From Betaproteobacteria bacterium (GTDB lineage: Bacteria; Pseudomonadota; Gammaproteobacteria; Burkholderiales; Rhodocyclaceae), in NCBI GenBank assembly GCA_009782565.1, contig WRIU01000003.1:62001-126000 (forward strand): a stretch of DNA of 64,000 nucleotides, written 5' to 3'. The notes beneath the pieces are model-generated. The model saw nothing but the letters and a program-made list of their open reading frames with translations. It was not told the DNA's origin and did not search any database. The position numbers and the translations under genes were made by a program. Positions 22,927 through 34,645 of the stretch are shown here, in pieces (positions within the stretch are counted from its first letter, which is position 1; each line of letters begins with the position of its first letter).

Positions 22927-23466
22927 TTATTTTGGGTAAGGAACTTCCTGCCTTGGCAAATCACGCAGCAAGACCGCCGCAACCAGGCCATTGACCAACC
23001 CGAACAGCACGGCAGCCGCGCCGAACAGGGGCGCGAGGTAAAACACGCCATCATGGGGAACCAGCCATAGGCGAGCCAGGATGAGCTGCGCGCCGATATG
23101 GGCAAAGGCGGCAAGAATGCTGGTACTGACCGGGCCGAACCATTTCTTCGGCAATCGCACCGTCCCAGCCAGCGCCAGCAAGCTTGCCAGCGCCCCGGCC
23201 AGACTTAAGAAAAATCCCGGCGCGAGAAATTGCCCCAGGAGCAGGCTGGCGGCAAACACCCTCAGCAACGACACCCACGCCGCTTCGCGCCAGCCCCAGC
23301 GTGCCAGTACCACCAGGGTAACGATATTGGCAAGCCCCGGCTTCACTCCCGGCAGCGGCAACGGAATCGCCGCCTCGGCCACGGTCAGCGCAATGGCCGC
23401 CGCCGCGTAGCGCGCCACCCGGTCATCCTCAGCGGTCGGCGTCAGTTCAATAATTGAGCGAGTCAT
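22927..23466 (-). CDS. Gx family membrane protein
   Basis: The 179-residue protein has about five or six hydrophobic helices and the family stretch LPGVKPGLANIVTLVVL near residue 40, which is characteristic of the Gx family (once named heptaprenyl diphosphate synthase component I), now seen as an ECF-type substrate-binding membrane component. Its substrate is not established. Its start overlaps the NusG-II gene end by 20 bp, indicating coupled translation. ApbE lies in the same run, consistent with flavin or electron-transfer-related function, but this is inference. Confidence 0.85.
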   Translation of the reverse strand: MTRSIIELTPTAEDDRVARYAAAAIALTVAEAAIPLPLPGVKPGLANIVTLVVLARWGWREAAWVSLLRVFAASLLLGQFLAPGFFLSLAGALASLLALAGTVRLPKKWFGPVSTSILAAFAHIGAQLILARLWLVPHDGVFYLAPLFGAAAVLFGLVNGLVAAVLLRDLPRQEVPYPK

Positions 23467-23851
23467 AATCCACTCCCCGCCCGGACAACGTCAGACTGAC
23501 TTCGTTGGGCGCGCAGATCGCTACCGCACCCGCGCGGGCAAGCCAGCCCTGGCGCACACAATACTGCCGTGGGCCGGGGTCGGAAGCGACACGGGCACGG
23601 CCCGGTTCGATCTCGATCACGGTCACGCCCAGCGGTCCCGGCACTTCGATGCGGTGCGGGCGAGACAAATCGGCCTTTGCGAAAACCTTTCCGGAGGCGC
23701 GCACGGTCACGCCATCGGGCGCACCCCCGCGCCAGAACCAGAACCCGGCAGCGGCACATGCCGCCAACCCGGCCAGTACGACCACCCAATCGCCGGGGCG
23801 CAAAAGTTCGCGCCACGCGCGCCATGTTTCCATTGAAATCGAATGCGGCAT
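23447..23851 (-). CDS. NusG domain II-containing membrane-anchored protein
   Basis: The 134-residue protein has one N-terminal membrane anchor (DWVVVLAGLAACAAAGFWFW) and a small beta-rich extracytoplasmic domain: FAKADLSRPHRIEVPGPLGVTVIEIEPGRARV, then PGPRQYCVRQGWLARAGAVAICAPNEVSLTL, with a pair of cysteines. This is the stand-alone NusG domain II type that repeatedly neighbours Gx proteins; it is not the transcription factor NusG. ATG 23833 (METWRAW) is an alternative start. Overlaps both flanking genes, so it is coupled to them. Confidence 0.82.
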   Translation of the reverse strand: MPHSISMETWRAWRELLRPGDWVVVLAGLAACAAAGFWFWRGGAPDGVTVRASGKVFAKADLSRPHRIEVPGPLGVTVIEIEPGRARVASDPGPRQYCVRQGWLARAGAVAICAPNEVSLTLSGRGVDYDSLNY

Positions 23852-24720
23852 CAGCCTTGAGCCACGCGATTATTTTCCTGCCGCGTCACCATGCGATGAC
23901 GAAGAAGGACATGGGCTTCCGTGCGGAACGCTTCGCCCAGGCGTTCCGCAATGTAGACCGAGCGATGTTGCCCGCCCGTGCATCCGATGGACACCGTCAG
24001 GTAACTGCGATTGTCGCGGACGAAACCCGGCAGCCAGGCGGCAACGAACGCGCGGATGTCTTCCACCATGCGGGCAACTTCAGGCTGCGTCTCGAAGTAG
24101 GCGATCACTTCCGGGTCGAACCCGGTGAGCGGGCGCAGGCGCGGATCATAGTGAGGATTGGGCAGGCAACGCACATCGAACACCATATCAGCATCGAGCG
24201 GGACGCCATACTTGAAGCCAAAGGACTGGAACATCAGGATCAAGCCCTCGCCCGCCTTGGCCTCGATAAAATCCCTGACCATGGCGCGCAGGGTGTTGGG
24301 GTGCATGTCGCTGGTGTCGATACGATGACCGAGGACGGAAATGTCTTCGAGCACATCGCGCTCGCGGGCAATCGCCTCTTCGAGCGAGACCCCCTCCCCG
24401 GCCAGCGGATGGCGGCGGCGAGTCTCGGAAAAACGGGCAATCAACGTATCGTCGCGCGAATCGAGAAAAATGAAGCGCAAATCCTCGATGAGTTCGCGCA
24501 GGAGTTTCATCTGCTCAGGCAGCGCCGCGATACTTTCCCCGGAGCGCACATCGACCGCCACCGCGCAGCGCGTGTAACCGGCGTTGCACAATACGCCCGC
24601 CAGTTGCGGCAACAACATGGCCGGAAGGTTATCGACAACATAATACCCAGCATCTTCCAGCGCCTTGAGCGCGATACTCTTACCCGAACCGGAAAGGCCG
24701 CTGATAAGGACGAGTTGCAT
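23851..24720 (-). CDS. rapZ: RNase adapter protein RapZ
   Basis: The 289-residue protein has the Walker A loop GLSGSGKS at residues 8-15, YYVVDNLP, FLDSRDD and the C-terminal IGCTGGQHRSVYIAE motif. RapZ senses glucosamine-6-phosphate and guides RNase E to the sRNA GlmZ in enterobacteria; in other proteobacteria its target is less certain. ATG 24720 gives MQLVLISGLSGSGKS; the open frame starts five codons earlier. Its last base is shared with the ORF limit of the NusG-II gene, so it is the likely first gene of the glutathione/ApbE run. Confidence 0.95.
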   Translation of the reverse strand: MQLVLISGLSGSGKSIALKALEDAGYYVVDNLPAMLLPQLAGVLCNAGYTRCAVAVDVRSGESIAALPEQMKLLRELIEDLRFIFLDSRDDTLIARFSETRRRHPLAGEGVSLEEAIARERDVLEDISVLGHRIDTSDMHPNTLRAMVRDFIEAKAGEGLILMFQSFGFKYGVPLDADMVFDVRCLPNPHYDPRLRPLTGFDPEVIAYFETQPEVARMVEDIRAFVAAWLPGFVRDNRSYLTVSIGCTGGQHRSVYIAERLGEAFRTEAHVLLRHRMVTRQENNRVAQG

Positions 24721-24842
24721 GGAGGCGGATACCAAAATGCTGTCGGCAGCAATATATCAAGTATCTCACGCCAGCACGATTCCCGCCCGACCTCATCACC
24801 AACTCATGCCGGAAAACACGCTCTTCGACCGAATTCACCGCG

Positions 24843-25736
24843 TCACTGCGATGAACCTCCCCCCGCGCGAAGGGCATCCAGCAACACCTCGTTGACCTCG
24901 ATCTGACGATGCTGCCAGCGTATCAGTTCATCAGGGTCAATGTCGGACTGGCCGTCCAGTGCGCTGAGCCAGCGTTTCCAACGGGCGCGATAGCGGTGAA
25001 TGGACACTTCCCCGGTAATGTCGCTCCCTATGACGCGCTTGGCTCCAACGTCGATGATGGAGAGCAGGTCATCCAGCATCAAACGCCCCTGATCCCAATT
25101 GGTGCGCGCCACGCTCTCGCACAGGACATCCTTGTCGATGGAGAGGTACAGGGGCACATGTGTACTGGAAAGTTCGCGCCGCAACGCATGGACGAGGCTT
25201 GCGGCATCGTCGAAATTGCGCGCGGCATCACGTAGGCCCAGGGCGCGCATCCAGCCAAGTTTCGCGCCTATCGTCCAATACCGGACTCGTCCGCGAAACA
25301 GCGGCCCCAGATGATTTTCCCAGGCATGAGCACAGCCTACGTCCGGGGAGCAGATACCGACGACATCGACGCGCGCGACGTGCGGCATGCACGCGACGTG
25401 CGCGACCCACGACCCGCAATGGATGCCGAAGGGAAAGCGCATGTTGTCCGGGTGGTTGTCGCAGACGAGAACGTGCAGGCCCATATGCCGACGCTGCCGC
25501 GCAATCAGAAAGGCACTCACATGATGAAAGTCCCCGCTGCCCATCAGCACAGGGCCATGAACATCGGGAAACAGGGCTTCGAGATACGACGAAAACGCGC
25601 GCCAGTCACGTCCCGCGCATCCAAAGCGGACGCGCTCCTGCCAGTCGGTGAGATCGATTCGCGCAAGGCCAGGGTAATCCATCGCGCGGTGCGAACCGTC
25701 CAGATCAAGCACGAGTGGGGGAAGATTCTCGTTCAT
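24843..25736 (-). CDS. Arginase-fold (ureohydrolase-like) protein
   Basis: The roughly 297-residue protein keeps the binuclear metal motifs of the arginase/agmatinase fold in divergent form: SGDFHH (for GGDHS) near residue 80, CDNHPDN (DxHxD) near 107 and LSIDKDVL (SxDxD) near 200. Overall sequence is far from arginase, agmatinase and formimidoylglutamase, so the substrate is unknown; hydrolysis of an amidine, guanidine or amide is the family expectation. Its ATG overlaps the stop of the acyltransferase fusion gene (ATGA), making it the last gene of a five-gene coupled operon. Confidence 0.72.
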   Translation of the reverse strand: MNENLPPLVLDLDGSHRAMDYPGLARIDLTDWQERVRFGCAGRDWRAFSSYLEALFPDVHGPVLMGSGDFHHVSAFLIARQRRHMGLHVLVCDNHPDNMRFPFGIHCGSWVAHVACMPHVARVDVVGICSPDVGCAHAWENHLGPLFRGRVRYWTIGAKLGWMRALGLRDAARNFDDAASLVHALRRELSSTHVPLYLSIDKDVLCESVARTNWDQGRLMLDDLLSIIDVGAKRVIGSDITGEVSIHRYRARWKRWLSALDGQSDIDPDELIRWQHRQIEVNEVLLDALRAGGGSSQ

Positions 25737-27340
25737 CTGTTCGACGGCGTTGAGGCATTTGAACCGCCAAACCACTGCCTGTCTGGTTCAAAACGCCCAG
25801 CAATGCGCCGAAGGAACGGTCGCAGCAGGGGATTACGCACGTACACAGCGTGGCGCGTCGGGGTAAAACGTGCACCGAGCGCAGCCTTGATGGCGGGGTC
25901 TGTCCAACCAGCGATGTAGGTGTTCAGCCCTTCGCGCCGGGCAAAGGCAAGGTTCTCCATCCAACTCACGAAGTACAGGTTATTCTCGCGCGCCACTGGG
26001 TAACGAAAACCGATGGTTTTGTCGACGAGCATATCGTCATGAATGAAACACAAGTTATGCCCGATAAGTTTATCGTCATGGTAGTACAGGAAGACGCGCC
26101 CATTGAGGGAGGCGTCGTTCAGCACTGCCCTGAAAAAATCCGGAGGCAACAGATCAAAATGAACTACGCTCTGCTCATAAACCTCCAGGTACTGCATATA
26201 GAGCTCTGACGCGAAGGCCGGTCGCGCGAAACACGGGTCACCCGTGGCGACGATCTCGACGCGCACATCCTCGCGGCTACGCAACTTGCGGCGAATATCG
26301 CGGCGGCGGCTGGCGGAGAACCGCGCCAGATAAGCATCCTCATCGGCAAAGTCGATGGGAACCCAGGCCAGCGCCTGCCCTTCAACCATGAAAAATCCAT
26401 TGGCCTTGCAGACATCGGCGAATTGGTCGGCCAGGCGGTTGGCACGTTCGGAGAGAAAAGGCGCGTTGCAGGGAATGTCCTTGACGATCAGCAAGGGGGT
26501 TTTCCAATCCCAAACTCGAAACATGCCCTGTACGAGCGAGGTGGCCTCCACGCGCGGCAGCGGGCAATATTCGCTGACAACGCTGCCCATGAAACATGCG
26601 CGCCATTGCAGCCAACGGCGTAAGTGCCGGTTGCCGGGTATCTTTCCGATCATGGACAGCGTCCGCTCGTCCGCCGTGGTGAGCAGATCGAACGTCGTCC
26701 AGAAACCGGGCATGCCGGTCACGCATGTGAACGGTTTGAACCCCCCTGCTGGATGGCGCGTAAAGTGATCGACCAGCGCATCGGGTTCCGCACTGGTCAG
26801 CCAACGCGGCGCATGGGATAAAGATGGATCAAACAAAGCGTCGGAATTACATGAAGCGGATGGCGAGCCAGGCTCAAATTCTCTCGTCGTATCTTGCTTA
26901 CGCCGCCACAAGGCGATTACGGCATACAGCAACAGCACGATAACCAACGCCCACGCAACTGCGCTGTGAAGGTTGCGGAGCGTGTAGGCAAGCCCAGGGG
27001 CAACTCCTCGCTCCCGCGCATAAATCAGCCCCCACCCCAACAGAGGCAGGGTAAACAACGATACATACAGGACGATAGAAGCGCCTTTAGCCAGCCAGTC
27101 GACCCACCCCCTGTCCGGCGCATCAGCACCTGCGGCAACCGCTTGGTACTTCAGGGCAAAGAACACCAGCAGCATGGCGAATGCCAGCCACCCGGCAAGG
27201 TAGTGCAAATCATCGTGGATCGGATTTTCGTTCCCCATGAGTTGCGCGGCAGCGATGGACACCACTACTGCACAGGCAATGGCTCCGCGCAGCACAAACA
27301 GAACCCGAAAATTCCATCCGCGAGGTTCCTTTCCGCTCAT
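25733..27340 (-). CDS. Membrane protein: b561-like four-helix domain fused to GNAT/FemAB-like acyltransferase
   Basis: About 535 residues. The first 145 hold four membrane helices: near 11-34, 43-65, 80-104 and 121-142. The layout and histidines in helix 2 (LHYLAGW) and helix 4 (LHSAVAW) recall cytochrome b561, but only one histidine lies in each, so heme binding is doubtful. After a linker, residues about 160-535 form a double-GNAT acyltransferase of the FemAB/DUF2156/Acetyltransf_6 kind, with KSSR-like basic stretch RRRDIRRKL, FLYYHDDKLIGHNLCF and YIAGWTDPAIKAALG. Such enzymes acylate lipids, amines or cell-wall precursors. Start overlaps the upstream stop by 4 bp. Confidence 0.7.
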   Translation of the reverse strand: MSGKEPRGWNFRVLFVLRGAIACAVVVSIAAAQLMGNENPIHDDLHYLAGWLAFAMLLVFFALKYQAVAAGADAPDRGWVDWLAKGASIVLYVSLFTLPLLGWGLIYARERGVAPGLAYTLRNLHSAVAWALVIVLLLYAVIALWRRKQDTTREFEPGSPSASCNSDALFDPSLSHAPRWLTSAEPDALVDHFTRHPAGGFKPFTCVTGMPGFWTTFDLLTTADERTLSMIGKIPGNRHLRRWLQWRACFMGSVVSEYCPLPRVEATSLVQGMFRVWDWKTPLLIVKDIPCNAPFLSERANRLADQFADVCKANGFFMVEGQALAWVPIDFADEDAYLARFSASRRRDIRRKLRSREDVRVEIVATGDPCFARPAFASELYMQYLEVYEQSVVHFDLLPPDFFRAVLNDASLNGRVFLYYHDDKLIGHNLCFIHDDMLVDKTIGFRYPVARENNLYFVSWMENLAFARREGLNTYIAGWTDPAIKAALGARFTPTRHAVYVRNPLLRPFLRRIAGRFEPDRQWFGGSNASTPSNR

Positions 27341-28527
27341 GCCACCTGTTCCAGCGCATCTGTAACCCGCGCAAAACCCGTGTCGTCCAGCCACAGGCTG
27401 TTGGTGATGGTCAGCGAGCGCGCCGCGAGATCGCGGGCATTGGGACAGGCATCCTGCGGAACACAGGAACGCAAATAGCCATAATCAGGCAAAGCATGGA
27501 TGAACATGCGCGTCACTCCCAATCCTGCGCCCCATAATACGCCGAGCGTACGATTCCGCCTGTCCTGATCCGGCAAACACAGCATGAGACAGGGCCATGT
27601 ACCCTCTTCGTCCTCCATGTCGCGGAAAACCAGCACCCCCGGCAAACGGTCGAGCACAGCAAGGCGGCGCATTGCCTGATCCGCTGTCTGTTGATGGAAC
27701 GCCTGGAGCCTGGAAAGCGCCCGCCGCCCGGCTCCCTGCCGCCATCCGCCAACATGATGCAGCAGAATCTCAGGAGAAAAAATATCCCCCACAGCGCTTG
27801 GCAGATTGCCCTTTTTCAACGCGCGGCGTAACGGCATGCCGTACACCCAGGGCAAGAAGGCGGGGCGATAAAACAACGCGTAAGCGGCCAGTTCAAGGCA
27901 GCGCCGGAATTCCCGCCAGGCATCCCGCTTGATAATGTCATCCTGCGCCCGCTCGATGGCTGCCGCCAAGGCCGGGTCGCGCGTCACCCACAAACCGCCT
28001 TCATATAGGCTCAATCCTTTCCCGGCGGCAAAACTGAAGAAACCGGCGTCCCCCTCTAGTCCAACGCTTTGCCCGCCCCGGCGCGCGCCGAAGGACTGCG
28101 CGGCATCTTCGATGACGAACACGCCGCGTTCGCGCGCAAGCCGCAGCACGGGAGCTACACGGGCCACGCGCCCGGCAAGATGCGTAGGCATAATTGCCAG
28201 CGTATCTTCATCACACATGGCGGCGAGCGCCTTCATGTCGAAATCGAGGCTATCGGCAGCCAGGTCGCACAGGCGTAGCCTCAGCCCGCAATGCGCGACG
28301 GCCAGTGCCACCAGCGGGCAGGTATAAGCCGGAACGATCACTGTCCGGCATCCGGACAACCGGCGCAACGCAGTAAGGATGAGCACGAGACTAGCCGTAC
28401 CCGAGCAGGCCAGCCCAGCGTAGGGCGCGCCCACATAATCCTGCGCGGCGCGCGAAAAGCCTCCCCTTGCGCCAAAGAGTTCCGGCAATGGGAGCGGCAA
28501 ACCCGCTGTAGGAGGCAACTCTCGCAT
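27337..28527 (-). CDS. DegT/DnrJ/EryC1/StrS-type PLP aminotransferase
   Basis: The roughly 396-residue enzyme has the DegT-family layout: ACSGTASLVLILTAL near the N-terminus, VIVPAYTCPLVALAV, VFVIEDAAQSFGARRGG, and the PLP-lysine segment FFSFAAGKGLSLYEGG. DegT enzymes transaminate sugar nucleotides (perosamine, Ara4N) or other carbonyls. It is 396 residues with an unusual insertion-rich C-terminal half, so a sugar substrate is not certain. ATG 28527 shares one base with the stop of the upstream EamA gene (TGATG), and its own stop overlaps the next start. Confidence 0.86.
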   Translation of the reverse strand: MRELPPTAGLPLPLPELFGARGGFSRAAQDYVGAPYAGLACSGTASLVLILTALRRLSGCRTVIVPAYTCPLVALAVAHCGLRLRLCDLAADSLDFDMKALAAMCDEDTLAIMPTHLAGRVARVAPVLRLARERGVFVIEDAAQSFGARRGGQSVGLEGDAGFFSFAAGKGLSLYEGGLWVTRDPALAAAIERAQDDIIKRDAWREFRRCLELAAYALFYRPAFLPWVYGMPLRRALKKGNLPSAVGDIFSPEILLHHVGGWRQGAGRRALSRLQAFHQQTADQAMRRLAVLDRLPGVLVFRDMEDEEGTWPCLMLCLPDQDRRNRTLGVLWGAGLGVTRMFIHALPDYGYLRSCVPQDACPNARDLAARSLTITNSLWLDDTGFARVTDALEQVA

Positions 28528-28934
28528 CAATGCCCCTCCACAGCCATCCCCCCCGGATTGCGATTTGACTCGCCATAGGCCAAGCAAAACACACCGGCCA
28601 GGATCAGCACCGCACCAAGGTATTGAAGCGCGGACAGGACTTCACCAAAAAGAGGCACCGAAACCACCAGCACCCCGACCACTTCCAAATGTGCGGCAGC
28701 AAACGCCGGGCCAACAGGAATGCGGCGCAGCATCGTCATGTAGGTTGCAAAGGCACAGAGGTATCCCAATATCGAGCAATACACCCACGGCGTACTCAAG
28801 GCGCGCAGCAACCAAGGCAGATCGAAAGTCAGCGGCGCAGCATGAAGAGCCGTGAACTTAAAACACACCTGTGCAAACGTGTCGAAAACCAGCAGCGCCA
28901 ACAGGCCAATAATGAAAAAGACACGCGAACTCAT
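28527..28934 (-). CDS. Small EamA/SMR-type membrane protein 1
   Basis: The 135-residue protein has four hydrophobic helices (FFIIGLLALLVFDTF, YCSILGYLCAFATYM, AAHLEVVGVLVVSVPLF and LQYLGAVLILAGVFCLAYG), half an EamA transporter. The RIPVGPAFAAAHLE segment and final LGAVLILAG are typical of ArnE/ArnF and SMR-like flippases. It is paired with a second half-size protein whose stop overlaps this start by 4 bp, so a heterodimeric transporter is likely. The cargo is unknown; ArnE/ArnF move undecaprenyl-phosphate-linked aminoarabinose. Confidence 0.8.
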   Translation of the reverse strand: MSSRVFFIIGLLALLVFDTFAQVCFKFTALHAAPLTFDLPWLLRALSTPWVYCSILGYLCAFATYMTMLRRIPVGPAFAAAHLEVVGVLVVSVPLFGEVLSALQYLGAVLILAGVFCLAYGESNRNPGGMAVEGH

Positions 28935-29299
28935 GCGCCTCCTCCCAGACCAACCAGCGCCACGCCCGCCAGGATCAGGCTGATGCCGATGATACGCGGG
29001 CGCGTAAGGCGTTCCTTGAACCACAATCGCCCTCCCACCATCACCGTAACGATACCGGCCATACCCAACAACACGCCTTCAGCCAAGGTCACCATTGAGA
29101 GAAATGCCAGCCAGGCGACGAATTCAAAGATATATGCTACTGCGCCGATATAAATCCATGGACGGCCTAGCATATGCCGCCAGTGTGCCCACCCCTCCGC
29201 TTCCCTGTTCTCGATGGCAGCCGCCTTGAACGCCAGCTGTCCGCCCGTATCAGTCACCAGATTGATGAGCCACAGCAGGACAATCGTGACCGTATTCAT
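28931..29299 (-). CDS. Small EamA/SMR-type membrane protein 2
   Basis: The 122-residue protein has four helices (TIVLLWLINLVTDT, WIYIGAVAYIFEFVAWLAFL, LLGMAGIVTVMVGG and IIGISLILAGVALVGLG), with VTLAEGVLLGMAGI and LWFKERLTRPRIIGI as the usual EamA-type loop. First gene of the five-gene minus-strand operon. Together with the next gene it gives the eight helices of a heterodimeric SMR-like pair. The 147-bp region upstream (29300-29446) is divergent with the alpha/beta hydrolase and must hold both promoters. Confidence 0.8.
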   Translation of the reverse strand: MNTVTIVLLWLINLVTDTGGQLAFKAAAIENREAEGWAHWRHMLGRPWIYIGAVAYIFEFVAWLAFLSMVTLAEGVLLGMAGIVTVMVGGRLWFKERLTRPRIIGISLILAGVALVGLGGGA

Positions 29300-29446
29300 G
29301 TCTTCGAACCCGTCAAACCCACACGACAGGATTGTGAAAGCCTACCGATGGCAAAATGGTAATCATCCTCAAGTCTCTGTACATTCCGAAAAACCCGGCA
29401 TCCCATAGGAGGCGGATAAATCAAGCTAGCCTCCGGATAAAAAACC

Positions 29447-30286
29447 ATGACAACCCCACACAAAGTCCCTCCCGGCAGCGCCGGGGTTTTATTGATCCAC
29501 GGCCTCACGGGAACCCCGAACGAACTGCGCTTCGTGGCGCGCGGCCTTAAAGCGGCTGGCTTCGAGGTCGAATGCGTGCGTCTGGCTGGACATTGCGGAA
29601 CCGAGGCGGATCTGCTCGCTACAGGTTGGAAGGACTGGTTCGCCAGTGTCGAACAAGCCGCTGAAGCCTTGCGTAAAAGAGTTAAACATCTGTTCGTGGC
29701 AGGGCTTTCGATGGGAGCCGTGCTGGCGATGAAATACGCTATCGAACATCCCGGCAAAGTCGACGGGCTGGGCCTGTACGGCACGACTTTCTTCTATGAT
29801 GGCTGGAGCATCCCCTTTGAGGGCAGGCATCTGGCCTTTTTGCTTCCAATCGTCATGGCCGTGGGATACGGACGAAAAAAACGTTTCATGGAAGCCCATC
29901 CTTACGGGATCAAGAACGAACGGCTGCGGCAGGCGATTACCAGCAAGATGCACGCGGGAGACTCGGAGGCCGCCGGACTGCCCGGCAACCCCTGGCCCTC
30001 GCTGGAACAGTTCTACCGCCTGTCTTCCAATGTGCGAAAAAACCTGCATCGTATCCACGTACCCGCCCTCGCCGTCCACGCGCGCGAGGACGACGTCGCA
30101 ACACTGGCTAGCGTACATATCATCGAACGCCGTTTCAGCGGACCGGTCGAAACGGTCGTGCTTGCCAACAGCTACCACATGGTAACGGTCGATCAGGAAA
30201 AGGCTACGCTGGTCGAACGCTCGGTGGATTTCTTCAGCCGCATCGTCGCACGCGCGGCCATGAAGGAAAAACACGAAGAGTCCTGA
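29447..30286 (+). CDS. Alpha/beta hydrolase (esterase/lipase-like)
   Basis: The 279-residue protein has the oxyanion HG motif LLIHGLTGTPNE, the nucleophile elbow GLSMG (about residue 90), an aspartate in HAREDDVAT and a catalytic histidine in SYHMVTVD. The closest known type is the monoglyceride lipase/carboxylesterase (Est30-like) group. No signal peptide, so cytoplasmic. It is divergent from the EamA-DegT operon and convergent with the class III aminotransferase; functional linkage to them is inferred from position only. Confidence 0.88.
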   Translation: MTTPHKVPPGSAGVLLIHGLTGTPNELRFVARGLKAAGFEVECVRLAGHCGTEADLLATGWKDWFASVEQAAEALRKRVKHLFVAGLSMGAVLAMKYAIEHPGKVDGLGLYGTTFFYDGWSIPFEGRHLAFLLPIVMAVGYGRKKRFMEAHPYGIKNERLRQAITSKMHAGDSEAAGLPGNPWPSLEQFYRLSSNVRKNLHRIHVPALAVHAREDDVATLASVHIIERRFSGPVETVVLANSYHMVTVDQEKATLVERSVDFFSRIVARAAMKEKHEES

Positions 30287-30306
30287 GCTTTCCTCCATTC
30301 CCACGA

Positions 30307-31674
30307 TCATCCTTTCTTGGCAAGCGTGATGAGTTGATCGAGCAGCGCAATTGCCAGTTCGATTTCCTCTCCGTCGATGTGCAGCGAAGGCGCAAGAGTG
30401 ATGACGTTCTTGTAATAGCCGCCCACGTCCAGCACGAGCCCCATTCGCTTGCCCTTGTGTTTCAGCCCGCCTGCCAGGCCGATGTCCGCCATCCTGTCGA
30501 GCAGGCGCTTATTGGGCGTAAAACCATCTGCTTCGCAAATCTCGGCGCGTAGCGCAAGCCCCAAACCATCCACATCGCCGATTTCGGGATGGCGTTTTTG
30601 CAGGTCACGCAGGCCCGCGAGAAAAAGCTCGCCCCGTTTCATGACGATCGGCTCGTAATCCGTCTCGGCCAGCATCCGCATCGTCTCAAGGCCCACCGCC
30701 GTGCCCAGAGGGTTGGAAGCAAACGTCGAATGTGTCGATCCGGGCGGGAAAACCTGCGGGTTGATGAGTTCCTCGCGCGCCCACAAACCGGCCAGCGGAT
30801 TCAGCCCGTTGGTCAGCGCCTTTCCGAAAACCAGCACATCCGGCGTCACGCCAAAATGCTCGATCGACCAGAGCTTGCCGGTACGATAAAAACCCATCTG
30901 AATTTCATCGACCACGAGCAGGATGCCGTATTTATCCAGAACCCGCTTGAGTCCTTTGAAGAAATTGGGTGGCGGGATGACATACCCCCCTGTGCCCTGA
31001 ATCGGCTCAACATAAAAGGCAGCGTACTCCGACTGTTCCGCCCTCGGATCCCACACGCCGTTGTATTCCGATTCGAACAGGCGCTCGAATTGCTGCACGC
31101 AATACTCGCCGTATTCTTCCTTGCTCATCCCCTTCGGGCCACGGAAGTGGTAGGGGAACGGGATGAAATACGCGCGATCCCCGAAATGCCCATAGCGGCG
31201 GCGGTAACGGTAACTCGACGTAATGGCCGACGCGCCCAGTGTGCGGCCATGGTATCCCCCCTCGAACGCGAACATCAGGCTCTTGCCCTCTTTGGCGTTT
31301 CGAACAATCTTCAATGAATCGTCGATGGATTGCGAACCGCCGACATTGAAATGAATACGCCCATCGAGCCCCCATTTCTTTTTCGCGTCCTGTGCGATCA
31401 TCTTCGCCAATTCGATCTTCGTGGGATGCAGATACTGGCTCGCCACCTGCGGCAAGGTGTCGATCTGCCGTTTGAGCACGGCATCCAGACGCGGATTGGC
31501 ATATCCGAAATTGACCGCCGAATACCACATCTGAAGATCGAGGAAAGGCGTGCCCTCGCCGTCGTACAGATAGCTGCCTTTACAGCGGGTAAAAATCTTG
31601 GGGTCGGAATAGTGAACAGTGTCACCAAACGAACAATACCGAGCCTCGTCAGCCAGCAGGGCGGCTTCACTCAT
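30307..31674 (-). CDS. Class III PLP-dependent aminotransferase
   Basis: The 455-residue enzyme has the class III pattern: FLDLQMWYSAVNFGYANPRL, the glycine loop NVGGSQSIDDSLKIVR (SG of the usual NSGSEA is SQS here), AFEGGYHGRTLGA, YVEPIQGTGGYV, the aspartate segment LLVVDEIQMGFYRTG and the PLP lysine in FGKALTNGLNP. Members include ornithine, 4-aminobutyrate and diaminobutyrate aminotransferases; I cannot choose among these. It follows the HAD phosphatase gene by 24 nt and is probably cotranscribed with it. Confidence 0.9.
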   Translation of the reverse strand: MSEAALLADEARYCSFGDTVHYSDPKIFTRCKGSYLYDGEGTPFLDLQMWYSAVNFGYANPRLDAVLKRQIDTLPQVASQYLHPTKIELAKMIAQDAKKKWGLDGRIHFNVGGSQSIDDSLKIVRNAKEGKSLMFAFEGGYHGRTLGASAITSSYRYRRRYGHFGDRAYFIPFPYHFRGPKGMSKEEYGEYCVQQFERLFESEYNGVWDPRAEQSEYAAFYVEPIQGTGGYVIPPPNFFKGLKRVLDKYGILLVVDEIQMGFYRTGKLWSIEHFGVTPDVLVFGKALTNGLNPLAGLWAREELINPQVFPPGSTHSTFASNPLGTAVGLETMRMLAETDYEPIVMKRGELFLAGLRDLQKRHPEIGDVDGLGLALRAEICEADGFTPNKRLLDRMADIGLAGGLKHKGKRMGLVLDVGGYYKNVITLAPSLHIDGEEIELAIALLDQLITLAKKG

Positions 31675-31698
31675 GTTGCTTCGTACTCCAGGAAAAAA

Positions 31699-32370
31699 TC
31701 AAATGGACAGGACGAGTTCAGACTCGGCCAGCGTGGAAATCATGAGGATGGCGTCATCGAATCCGGAAATGGGAACATGGTGCAGACATTTGTCGAAGCA
31801 ATGCGTAATGAGGCTGCCCTTGGCAAACACCATATCCGCACGGGCCGCAACACAGAAATCGGAACGGCCATCGCCAATCATCAACACCTTCTTGCCTACC
31901 GCCCGCGCGCGGTGCGCGAAAGCGCACTTGCACATGCCGGAAGCCGAGCAACACGCCGTATCCGCGTGAGGAGAATCGAGCCTCCAGGACCGTGCGCCGA
32001 CCTGCGTAAGACGATTGGCGTAAAACGGCAACGCAGGCAAACGATGGCGTCGCAGGATGCGCTCGATGGCGTAATCAAGGCCATCGCTGACGATGGACAA
32101 ATCCCACCCGCGCGCGCAAACGGCATCGACGAACGCCGCGAAGGCCCCATCCACGTCAATGGCGTCGATGGCCTCATCGAGTTCTTCCTTTGAAACATCG
32201 AGACAAGCAATCTGCTGCCGCATGCAGACGCGGGAACCGATGCGCCCCGCACGCCATTCGGCCTCAATCTCCCGCCAGCCCGGTTTTCCGAACGTTTCCA
32301 GCAACGTATCGGTTACGTCACTCGTCGAGATGGTTCCATCAAAATCGCACAGCACAGACCAGGCAGCCAA
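31699..32370 (-). CDS. MtnX-like HAD-IB family phosphatase
   Basis: The 223-residue protein has HAD motif I CDFDGTISTSD at residue 8, motif II in LSIVSDGLDY (Ser), a lysine in GKKVLMIGDGRSDFCVA which also holds motif IV (GDGRSD). The layout matches the SerB/MtnX subgroup, whose members dephosphorylate phosphoserine, methylthioribulose-type or other small phosphates. It has a cysteine-rich stretch (TACCSASGMCKC) not typical of the group. It begins the two-gene unit with the class III aminotransferase, suggesting it makes or uses the substrate of that enzyme. Confidence 0.85.
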   Translation of the reverse strand: MAAWSVLCDFDGTISTSDVTDTLLETFGKPGWREIEAEWRAGRIGSRVCMRQQIACLDVSKEELDEAIDAIDVDGAFAAFVDAVCARGWDLSIVSDGLDYAIERILRRHRLPALPFYANRLTQVGARSWRLDSPHADTACCSASGMCKCAFAHRARAVGKKVLMIGDGRSDFCVAARADMVFAKGSLITHCFDKCLHHVPISGFDDAILMISTLAESELVLSI

Positions 32371-32513
32371 ACTGCTTTCTCCTTCAGAATACCGAAATAT
32401 TATTGGACGCTTTTAAGTTTAATCAGCCCTTGCTGTCAAAAACCTGTCTGCGTATCCGCTGCCCTCCCCTATACTCGCAAAAACGTATCAGATACCACAC
32501 AAGTACGAATCTC

Positions 32514-33332
32514 ATGACAGGAACCGCCATCAAGATATTTATCGTCAGCCTGGCCTGTGTAGTCCAAATATCCACCGCCCATGCACAGACTGGCTCCACG
32601 CAGGAGAACGACGCCGAACAAAGCGGGCAAAACAGCTTCACCTGGGCCATCGGCGCGGGCGGCATGCGCTCACCCGCCTGGCTGGGATCATCGCACACGC
32701 GCGACGACTTTCTGCCCTATTTCGCGTTCAACTGGCGCGATATCGTCGAGTTGAGCGTCACCGACGGCCTGAGTATCGACCTGTTGCGCGGCAGCGCCTG
32801 GCACGGCGGGCTGATCGGCACATGGCGGCGCGGCCGCTCATCGCGCGACCTGGGCGCGCTCGCCGAGGCGGGCATCGCCACCCTGTCCCACACTTGGCAG
32901 GCAGGAGTCTATCTGGAACACCGCCCCATCAAGAATTTGGCGCTGGGCGTCAGCCTCAGCCACGACATCCAATCGACAGGGAGCGCCTACGGCAACGCCT
33001 ATATCGAGTGGGACATCCCGGTACTGAAACCGGTTGAGCACTCAATTAAACTCAACCGCGAGTTTATGAACCGTTCAGCCATGCGGCGATACTTCAGCGT
33101 CCCCCTCGAGGCAGCAGCAGCGCTCGGCGTACAGGCTTACCGCCCTGGAGCGGGCGCAAGCGGAACCAGGCTAAGTTACGAAGCCTTCCTCCCCACAAGC
33201 CGCTCGACCGGTTTCGCCCTCGGTTTTCACTGGACACGGCTGGCATCAAAACCATCTGCCAGCCCGCTGGTGCGCGACTACGGCAACAAAACACAGCGCA
33301 CGGCCCTTGCGGCATTTCTCGTGCATTTCTGA
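32514..33332 (+). CDS. MipA/OmpV family outer membrane protein
   Basis: The 272-residue protein has a signal peptide (cleaved after TAHA, about residue 24) and beta-barrel sequence with alternating hydrophobic strands ending in a C-terminal aromatic residue (LAAFLVHF). WAIGAGGMRSPAWLGSSH resembles the conserved start of MipA/OmpV, and FLPYFAFNWRDIVEL and the GGLIGTWRRGRSS segment fit too. MipA was named as a scaffolding protein for murein enzymes; OmpV-type members are barrels of unclear function. Monocistronic as far as the spacing shows. Confidence 0.82.
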   Translation: MTGTAIKIFIVSLACVVQISTAHAQTGSTQENDAEQSGQNSFTWAIGAGGMRSPAWLGSSHTRDDFLPYFAFNWRDIVELSVTDGLSIDLLRGSAWHGGLIGTWRRGRSSRDLGALAEAGIATLSHTWQAGVYLEHRPIKNLALGVSLSHDIQSTGSAYGNAYIEWDIPVLKPVEHSIKLNREFMNRSAMRRYFSVPLEAAAALGVQAYRPGAGASGTRLSYEAFLPTSRSTGFALGFHWTRLASKPSASPLVRDYGNKTQRTALAAFLVHF

Positions 33333-33427
33333 TGTTGCGATTTTGTCACAGACTGCTTCGGCATATTGTTTTGCACTTTGTGCATATGTAAATTCAGCCT
33401 CCCATTATTATCTGTTAAGGAGCCATC

Positions 33428-33745
33428 ATGCTTCGCTTCTTTCGTTTCCTGATTCTGGCGCTGGCGTTGTGCCCGATGGCCGCGACGACTGCCGTGGCCG
33501 CGAAACTCGTCAATATCAACACTGCCAGCGTGGCAACCTTACGGCATGTCAAGGGAATCAACCTGGCCAGAGCCAGGGCCATTGTCGAATACCGCGATAC
33601 CCACGGGCGTTTTACTTCCGTCGAGCATCTGATCAGAGTGCGGGGCATCACCAGAAGCGCGCTGAACCAGATCAGGCCGCAAGTCACTGTCGGCAGGGTA
33701 TACAAAAACAGACCTCATCACAGAAGACCGCACCACTATTACTGA
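33428..33745 (+). CDS. Secreted ComEA-like helix-hairpin-helix protein
   Basis: The 105-residue protein has a signal peptide (cleavage after AVAA, about residue 25) and then a single helix-hairpin-helix pair: VNINTASVATLRHVKGINLARARAIVEYR and FTSVEHLIRVRGITRSALNQIRPQVTV, the ComEA domain that binds double-stranded DNA in the periplasm during natural transformation. It ends in a basic, His-rich tail (NRPHHRRPHHYY) that may help bind DNA or metal. Whether the organism is competent cannot be told from this window. A strong ribosome site (AAGGAG) precedes the ATG. Confidence 0.88.
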   Translation: MLRFFRFLILALALCPMAATTAVAAKLVNINTASVATLRHVKGINLARARAIVEYRDTHGRFTSVEHLIRVRGITRSALNQIRPQVTVGRVYKNRPHHRRPHHYY

Positions 33746-33795
33746 GCGCAATCCACGTCATTCATTAGGGGTGGTTTCTCCCAAAATCACAGATA

Positions 33796-33843
33796 AACTG
33801 CCCCCAAAAAGCCGAACACCAATCCGGCTTTTTGGGGGCAGTT
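33796..33843. terminator. Bidirectional terminator, 19-bp perfect stem
   Basis: AACTGCCCCCAAAAAGCCG (33796-33814) pairs perfectly with CGGCTTTTTGGGGGCAGTT (33825-33843) around a 10-nt loop. The inner part (AAAAAGCCG...CGGCTTTTT) is a classical two-way terminator with A and T tracts. It separates the convergent ComEA-like and diiron-protein genes. The outer GGGGGCAGTT arms extend it beyond what a terminator needs. Confidence 0.85.
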
Positions 33844-33874
33844 ACACAAAGGCTGGGAAATTTCCCGATACAGG

Positions 33875-34645
33875 TCAGGGAATACGGTAATGATCCTGCG
33901 TCATGAGATCGACGCCACACTGAAGCCCCTCGATCCAGTCGATGAAGCGGTTGACCATCGCCCTGCCCACGAAACGCGCCCCATGCTGCGGCACGATCTG
34001 CTCGATGTCGAGTTGCCGCGCCATCTGCGCCCAATAGCGGCAAATCCTGTTGGAAATCATGTAGCGGCGGTGGAAACCGGCCATGAAATCAATGTGGGCA
34101 TCGAAATCGGCCACAGGTTTGGCCGCGTCGGAATGATCGAGCAACGAAACGCCGAGGTCGCCCGAAAACAATATCTTGGAGACCGGGTCGTAAATCTGGA
34201 AATTGCCTTCCGAATGCAGAAAGTGAGCTGGAATAGCCTTCAGTTTGCAATTTCCGAGCGGGACTGCCATCCCCTCATCGGGAATGCCGATGATACGGTC
34301 GGTGTAATTGCGCCCGGTGGTGAAGTGCGGCAAAAAGCGCGCCCACAGCTTGGAAATCAACACCCGGCAATTGGTCGTCACCATCCACTTGTTGGCCGAA
34401 GCGATGATGTCCGGGTCTTGGTGCGAGGCGAAGATATAATCGAGGTCACGCGAATAGAAATAACGCGCCATGCTCATCAACAGACCGTTGTAGGTCATGT
34501 TGCCACCCGGTTCGAGCAGTGCGCCATGTTCCCCGTCGACGATCAGGAACTGGTTACACTGTACCGCGTGATCCGACGCCTCATCGACGAGGTCATAGAA
34601 AGCCAAGCAAACATGCCTGCCGTCATTGAAAAGCTCAACTGCCAT
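33875..34645 (-). CDS. ODP-type oxygen-binding diiron protein (MBL fold)
   Basis: The roughly 256-residue protein has the MBL-fold diiron pattern of the oxygen-binding ODP group: FASHQDPDIIAS in the place of HxHxD, AHFLHSEGNFQIYDP, LFSGDLGVSLLD and the C-terminal IVPQHGARF. ODP from Treponema binds oxygen reversibly and takes part in aerotaxis and signalling. It lacks the flavodoxin domain of A-type flavoproteins. ATG 34645 (MAVELFNDG) is taken as start because that is how relatives begin; the frame opens 33 bp earlier. Monocistronic, ending at the shared terminator. Confidence 0.83.
   Translation of the reverse strand: MAVELFNDGRHVCLAFYDLVDEASDHAVQCNQFLIVDGEHGALLEPGGNMTYNGLLMSMARYFYSRDLDYIFASHQDPDIIASANKWMVTTNCRVLISKLWARFLPHFTTGRNYTDRIIGIPDEGMAVPLGNCKLKAIPAHFLHSEGNFQIYDPVSKILFSGDLGVSLLDHSDAAKPVADFDAHIDFMAGFHRRYMISNRICRYWAQMARQLDIEQIVPQHGARFVGRAMVNRFIDWIEGLQCGVDLMTQDHYRIP

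Follow-up and report, generated by a model that had tools for sequence, protein, structure and literature searches.

The stretch studied here, a 64,000-nucleotide piece of a betaproteobacterial contig that we call the window, carries a compact run of five minus-strand genes belonging to a larger cassette. In the order of reading, these genes encode two half-size EamA/SMR proteins (SMR2 and SMR1), a DegT/DnrJ/EryC1-family aminotransferase dependent on pyridoxal phosphate (PLP), a fusion of a b561-like domain with a putative double-GNAT transferase (b561-GNAT) and a predicted ureohydrolase-fold enzyme (ARG). As claimed in the preliminary description of this DNA, all four junctions overlap, by 1 or 4 bp: SMR2/SMR1 (ATGA, 28934-28931), DegT/b561-GNAT (ATGA, 27340-27337) and b561-GNAT/ARG (ATGA, 25736-25733) share four bases, and SMR1/DegT (TGATG) share the single base 28527. 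The coordinates given for the five genes were also exact, and Pfam agrees with the labels EamA, EamA, DegT and b561. The five genes do go together, but a unit ending at 29299, as first proposed, was rejected: genes for a HAD-IB phosphatase (HAD), a class III PLP enzyme (AT3), an alpha/beta hydrolase (ABH) and a MipA/OmpV family protein travel along with them. The cassette consists of eight genes (HAD, AT3, ABH, SMR1, SMR2, DegT, GNAT and ARG) and the adjoining MipA/OmpV gene (Table 1).

Table 1. Features of the cassette in the window (aa, amino acids; ORF, open reading frame)
Feature	Position	Strand	Remarks
ARG, divergent predicted ureohydrolase-fold enzyme	24843-25736	-	297 aa; all six dimetal ligands retained
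b561-GNAT fusion	25733-27340	-	535 aa; degenerate b561 membrane domain ~1-165, predicted double-GNAT transferase ~180-520
DegT/DnrJ/EryC1-family PLP aminotransferase	27337-28527	-	396 aa; Pfam DegT_DnrJ_EryC1
SMR1, half-size EamA/SMR protein	28527-28934	-	135 aa; Pfam EamA
SMR2, half-size EamA/SMR protein	28931-29299	-	122 aa; Pfam EamA
SMR2-ABH intergenic region	29300-29446	.	likely promoter site for the five-gene run
ABH, alpha/beta hydrolase, Hydrolase_4 family	29447-30286	+	divergent from the five-gene run
AT3, class III PLP enzyme	30307-31674	-	subfamily so far almost confined to the cassette
HAD-IB phosphatase, MtnX-like	31699-32370 (ORF limits)	-	
MipA/OmpV outer-membrane family protein	32649-33332, domain (to 33317) to stop codon; ORF from 32190	+	

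The cassette was compared across 65 loci that were collected through ARG, which is therefore present by construction. Several of these loci come from related species, some genomes may be repeated, genes were delimited by the longest ORF and some are lacking because of contig ends. Duplicates, shorter copies and second copies per genome (L001-L013, L020-L025, L039 and L072-L087) were left out beforehand, which also dropped genomes G011 (fused copies without DegT) and G015 (cut locus). GNAT is found in 61 of the 65 loci, SMR1 in 55, SMR2, AT3 and ABH in 54 each, HAD in 51 and DegT in 39. The most dispensable member of the cassette is DegT, for which 26 loci gave no match, some of these loci being truncated at contig ends. 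All eight families are present together in 32 loci, which display 11 layout strings, two of them differing only by overlapping convergent gene ends. Over the whole set there are 30 layout strings, many shortened by contig ends.

The overlapping junctions had been taken as a sign of fixed stoichiometry, and conservation of the gene order across other betaproteobacteria had been proposed as a check. However, only 8 of the 37 loci that hold all five families first noted have the collinear order of the window, which leaves fixed stoichiometry unsupported; the order is reshuffled, although the families stay together. In a frequent alternative layout, (AT3-)GNAT-ARG faces an oppositely read run DegT-SMR1-SMR2-ABH-HAD. 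Retention of the gene set despite the changing order points to a joint function.

Furthermore, GNAT and ARG lie on the same strand in 61/61 loci holding both, and their distance, measured by ORF ends, is at most 400 bases in 51 of these. The 10 others include L089 and L097, where long ORFs overlap; in L066-L071, L098 and L100, ARG lies upstream and is separated from GNAT by other cassette genes. In a scan of named genomes, GNAT was found beside ARG in 41 of 44 loci, the misses being L025, L027 and L045, of which L045 is truncated at a contig end. The ARG-GNAT association is far above chance. Two loci carry an orphan ARG and no other cassette gene (L025:4316-5206 in genome G019 and L027:6670-7596, 77% and 73% identical to the ARG of the window, respectively).

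ARG is encoded by 9 of 60 genomes of relatives and, in a sample of 398 genomes from across the phylum, by 16, the window's own genome being included in both counts; 13 of the 15 further matching genomes of the phylum sample were fetched (G343 and G400 were left out). Carriers of the cassette belong to the Alpha-, Beta- and Gammaproteobacteria and to Desulfovibrio-type bacteria. The 44 ARG loci from named genomes originate from Zoogloeaceae/Azoarcus-type Betaproteobacteria, Uliginosibacterium, Rudaea, Acinetobacter, Pluralibacter, Erwinia and Enterobacillus, and also from metagenome-assembled genomes (MAGs) labelled Desulfovibrio, Desulfobulbus and Adiutrix. Further loci lie on plasmids of Xanthomonas sacchari, Bartonella, Rhizobium, Agrobacterium, Sinorhizobium, Phyllobacterium and Roseomonas. 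AT3 orthologues (E up to 1e-180) occur in eight of the 60 relatives' genomes, all among the nine that carry ARG; G019 has ARG and, genome-wide at E 1e-180, no AT3 orthologue. AT3 matches of >60% identity were found in 34 plasmid records (Rhizobium 16, Agrobacterium 10, Bartonella 5 and Xanthomonas, Sinorhizobium and Phyllobacterium 1 each). Compared by tally and not per record, these have the same organisms as 34 of the 49 ARG plasmid records; 11 of the other 15 are from Roseomonas (~33% identity).

The nearest named relative by ARG is the MAG Nt197P4bin15 (95% identity). We take isolate codes of this kind to designate termite samples and, judged by this relative, the bacterium of the window probably has an insect-gut habitat. 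On a single contig of Acinetobacter rathckeae (NZ_VTDO01000003.1), two 19-kb stretches (L038 and L039) lie in opposite orientation, with matching ORF layout and the cassette in both. On a plasmid of Bartonella sp. HY406 (L065), AT3 is 80% identical to that of the window; the genes that come next after the cassette, on the other strand, are a hypothetical one and one for an MBOAT O-acyltransferase.

ARG matches the Pfam Arginase family below threshold (16.4 bits, cut-off 22), and its predicted ureohydrolase fold agrees with the arginase-fold label of the preliminary description. Residues H71/H72, D93, H95, D97, D201 and D203 are invariant in 49 sequences; we assume the six-ligand motif of ureohydrolases to be one His, then D-x-H-x-D, then D-x-D. 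In fold comparison, ARG comes closest to agmatinase and other amidinohydrolases, with 13-16% identity in the eight top matches, and ARG has motifs of its own (GSGDxHH, DNHPD, DKD and TNWDQG). Comparison of its profile with PDB chains gave one arginase at E 0.06. ARG is probably a divergent member of the ureohydrolase (arginase) superfamily, for which hydrolysis of a guanidino group is a prediction.

The PLP lysine of AT3 (K285) and D256 are kept in 40/40 sequences. Near the C-terminus, the N-x-[IV]-R stretch, whose Arg presumably binds the substrate carboxylate in class III enzymes, has changed from NVIR to NVIT: this position is Thr in 39 and Ser in 1 of 40 sequences and Arg in both PDB relatives compared. 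On the Roseomonas mucosa plasmid (L067), the place of AT3 is taken by a distant class III enzyme (24% identity) that carries the annotation glutamate-1-semialdehyde aminomutase, and a gene for an undecaprenyl-diphosphate phosphatase adjoins DegT. In DegT, K170, which from its motif we take to be the PLP lysine, is invariant in 27 sequences. These enzymes could instead serve the catabolism of a guanidino compound or polyamine, or its use as an osmoprotectant: ARG would remove urea, AT3 and DegT would transaminate, HAD would dephosphorylate and the SMR proteins would move the amine. The six metal ligands of ARG and its amidinohydrolase-like fold are consistent with such a route, as is an ORF family judged by eye to be of LysR type, found near the cassette in five loci. 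However, the loss of the class III Arg in AT3, the MipA and histidine kinase neighbors (see below) and the eight annotated plasmid loci, where neither an amidinotransferase nor a decarboxylase gene adjoins the cassette, make it quite improbable.

The b561-GNAT fusion matches the Pfam families Ni_hydr_CYTB, FemAB_like (PF04339) and Acetyltransf_6, the latter two above their cut-offs. The transferase part is predicted to adopt a double-GNAT fold. In the fold ranking, aminoacyl-tRNA-dependent transferases stand ~2 to 4 Z above acyl-CoA-dependent GNAT and myristoyltransferase entries, and the closest folds are those of Sba18/Sbb17, which were solved with streptothrisamine. A search of PDB chains with the GNAT profile gave only three beta-2-microglobulin matches (E 0.08-0.1), which we take as chance. 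The name membrane acyltransferase that this protein had received needs correcting: the fold, without support from profiles, is closest to enzymes that use aminoacyl-tRNA. The group transferred may be an amino acid instead of a fatty acid.

Nevertheless, transfer of a fatty-acyl or other acyl group, giving an N-acylated amine, for instance an aminolipid resembling ornithine lipids, is a serious rival. Acetyltransf_6 and FemAB_like, the lack of a profile link to MprF or FemAB, the ketosynthase and acyl carrier protein genes that lie between AT3 and GNAT in Xanthomonas sacchari, and the fatty-acid desaturase and cyclopropane synthase genes within the run of the Rhizobium and Phyllobacterium loci L069-L071 would all suit it. 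The fold ranking argues against it and we regard acyl transfer as unlikely.

Another serious rival is the proposal that the product is a small basic metabolite, decorated with an amino acid and secreted by the SMR pair, with or without ABC, HlyD and TolC proteins, instead of being retained in the envelope. It draws on the resemblance to Sba18/Sbb17 and on the involvement of GNAT-fold aminoacyl-tRNA transferases in several antibiotic pathways, as described in PMC12945691. Moreover, the distribution is patchy and partly plasmid-borne, and Xanthomonas and Agrobacterium loci have genes annotated as ABC, HlyD or TolC close to the cassette; ORF families shared with these loci, not all individually identified, recur in 8 to 13 loci. 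On the other hand, the desaturase and cyclopropane synthase of the rhizobial runs and the adjoining MipA point to the envelope, and the presence of the same set over several classes, with AT3 identities to the window protein of 67-93% in 20 other aligned sequences (62-99% in a separate comparison), would be unusual for a lineage-specific antibiotic. We consider secretion rather unlikely.

The b561 part of the fusion scores 40.8 bits against Ni_hydr_CYTB (cut-off 30.1). The unfused b561 proteins encoded near the cassette in L030 and L068 have four His columns in common, presumably haem ligands; the fusions of the window and of G011 (L022) keep two of them and have replaced the two others. Furthermore, the first-helix His of the two unfused proteins, three columns apart, have no counterpart in the fusions. 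With these histidines lost, a functional cytochrome b561 was judged unlikely. The fusion was observed only in the window and G011, the G015 copy ending at a contig end, and the GNAT proteins of most other relatives align only from ~150-195 of the window protein and have no b561 domain. The fused domain would have become a membrane anchor. Two contigs of G011 (C153 and C66; L021 and L022) carry the cassette with the fusion and without DegT, with equal identities to the window proteins.

Among the remaining proteins, SMR1 has ArnF as its best NCBIfam match, a weak one (31 bits, cut-off 99), and E59 of SMR2 is invariant in 41 sequences. In the alphaproteobacterial ABH proteins of L066, L068 and L069, the Ser nucleophile is replaced by Cys (GICVG versus GLSMG), which would suit action on a thioester or an amidase-like role. 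Among the NCBIfam matches listed, no equivalog-level cut-off was reached by any of the eight window proteins.

Genes near the cassette suggest regulation and a link with the envelope. Within 6 kb, a response-regulator family occurs in 23 of the 65 loci and a histidine-kinase family in 21, the kinase being at most 1 kb from the cassette in 16; the family members tested by Pfam were the pair of L030. In 22 loci (18 of one family and 4 of another), a MipA gene is found no more than 300 bp away, and members from L032, L034, L017 and the window were tested by Pfam. MipA is described as a co-sensor of polymyxin with ParRS in PMC10936184, and MipA/OmpV as part of the BesRS regulon in PMC9426598.

In the window itself, the intergenic region between SMR2 and ABH is the likely promoter place of the five-gene run. 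A sigma-70 scan gave no excess over shuffled sequences and no consensus promoter in 29300-29446; a terminator scan likewise gave no excess over shuffles, and Rfam had no match in the region 23000-34500. Downstream of the run lies the housekeeping gene rapZ (23851-24735). A minus-strand ORF at 29489-30310 was rejected as a gene, since neither Pfam nor NCBIfam gave a match for it at E 0.01 and the overlapping plus-strand ORF encodes the hydrolase.

Taken together, these data lead us to read the cassette as a regulated envelope-modification pathway that makes, and flips or exports, an amine-bearing envelope lipid or surface decoration, with a probability of roughly 40%. Synthesis, acylation and export of an amino-containing envelope compound, as proposed earlier, is still the best guess, except that the acylation step is doubtful and amino-acid transfer is favored. 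HAD, AT3 and ARG, with DegT in some lineages, would generate a head group or small molecule bearing an amine, to which the double-GNAT protein would join an amino acid, most likely from aminoacyl-tRNA, like FemX and MprF. ABH would act on an ester or thioester, editing or releasing it, and SMR1 and SMR2 together would flip or export the product, like ArnE/ArnF. In the clade of the window, the degenerate b561 domain would keep the transferase at the membrane. The pathway would serve to change the surface charge or the lipid composition when the envelope is stressed, together with a two-component system and MipA. This case is built on folds and neighbors: the gene set, its co-occurrence, the predicted folds, the conserved catalytic residues and the neighboring genes are established, and from them we infer every reaction, the dependence on tRNA, the lipid nature of the product and its purpose.

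Several results weigh against this envelope pathway. Aligned with hhalign, the GNAT profile gave probabilities of 0.4% with MprF and 0.2% with FemAB, within the range of unrelated controls (0.1-0.7%), whereas MprF against FemAB gave 70%; the profiles used 8 of 10 fetched loci each, the window row was removed to avoid distortion by the fused domain, and L109, L110, L111 and L115 were unused. At E 0.01, the transferase matches neither FemAB (PF02388) nor LPG_synthase_C (PF09924), the MprF family, which has no match anywhere in the window's genome (G000), and the predicted shared fold would be no proof of function. The eight window proteins have no match to a glycosyltransferase or a classical lipid synthase, and no result points to the substrate of ARG, AT3 or HAD. 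Moreover, the recurrent neighbor families include no two-component family near the window's own cassette. PmrA-type boxes gave no clear signal, with 12 strand-wise matches at 6 sites, all in A+T-rich Acinetobacter, versus 5.1 expected from base shuffles. In addition, the cassette of L065 is reduced to AT3, GNAT and ARG, and genome G016 has a second AT3 copy and one ARG match.

A more specific version would be an undescribed proteobacterial envelope defense: a two-component-controlled pathway in which a double-GNAT protein uses aminoacyl-tRNA to make an amine-rich membrane lipid decorated with an amino acid, an ArnEF-like SMR heterodimer flips it, and a PLP enzyme and a ureohydrolase of near-exclusive families contribute, protecting the cell against cationic peptides of insect and plant hosts. 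We put it forward as a doubtful, speculative extension. The set is kept across several proteobacterial classes, in Acinetobacter, rhizobia, Agrobacterium, Bartonella (in reduced form) and termite-gut bacteria, so its product must be worth keeping. If the product is a new aminolipid or surface decoration, the cassette would be a route of envelope charge control beside Arn, EptA and MprF; if it is a metabolite, the pathway would be a widespread cryptic one. In either case, the high identity of AT3 to the window protein makes it a ready marker for locating the cassette. The statement that no described pathway has this set stood: literature searched by gene-name combinations (preprints outside its scope, few subscription papers) yielded neither such a pathway nor a paper on the cassette.

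Compared with known ureohydrolases (agmatinase, guanidinopropionase and proclavaminate amidinohydrolase), ARG is only 13-16% identical, has its own motifs and falls below the Pfam Arginase threshold. The transferase is 12-16% identical, over the aligned parts, to FemABX and the streptothricin-type Sbb17/Sba18 and does not match PF02388; its use of aminoacyl-tRNA is suggested by the fold ranking, and its neighbors are unlike those of peptidoglycan bridge synthesis. With MprF/LpiA, which is accompanied by an alpha/beta hydrolase of AcvB/AtvA type, it would share the predicted double-GNAT fold, but it has no LPG_synthase_C domain and no profile similarity, its membrane part is b561-like and not an MprF flippase, and the remaining cassette genes have no counterpart. 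AcvB is described as a lysyl-phosphatidylglycerol hydrolase in PMC13197417. In the mipBA-ParRS system of Pseudomonas aeruginosa, a MipA-family gene is also tied to a two-component system, according to PMC10936184. For the cassette, a link with polymyxin would be by analogy only, MipB, ParRS and Mex genes not having been looked for at the loci. The L-Ara4N modification of lipid A by ArnBCADTEF includes a glycosyltransferase, a formyltransferase/dehydrogenase, a deacetylase and a lipid A transferase. The eight window proteins, the only ones of the genome searched for these enzymes, have no match to ArnA, ArnD, ArnT or a glycosyltransferase among the matches listed; ARG, AT3, GNAT, HAD and ABH have no Arn counterpart, and DegT was not found in 26 of the 65 cassette loci. 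The likeness with Arn lies in the DegT-family aminotransferase and the two half-size SMR-type proteins, the counterparts of which, ArnE/ArnF, flip an undecaprenyl-linked amino sugar.

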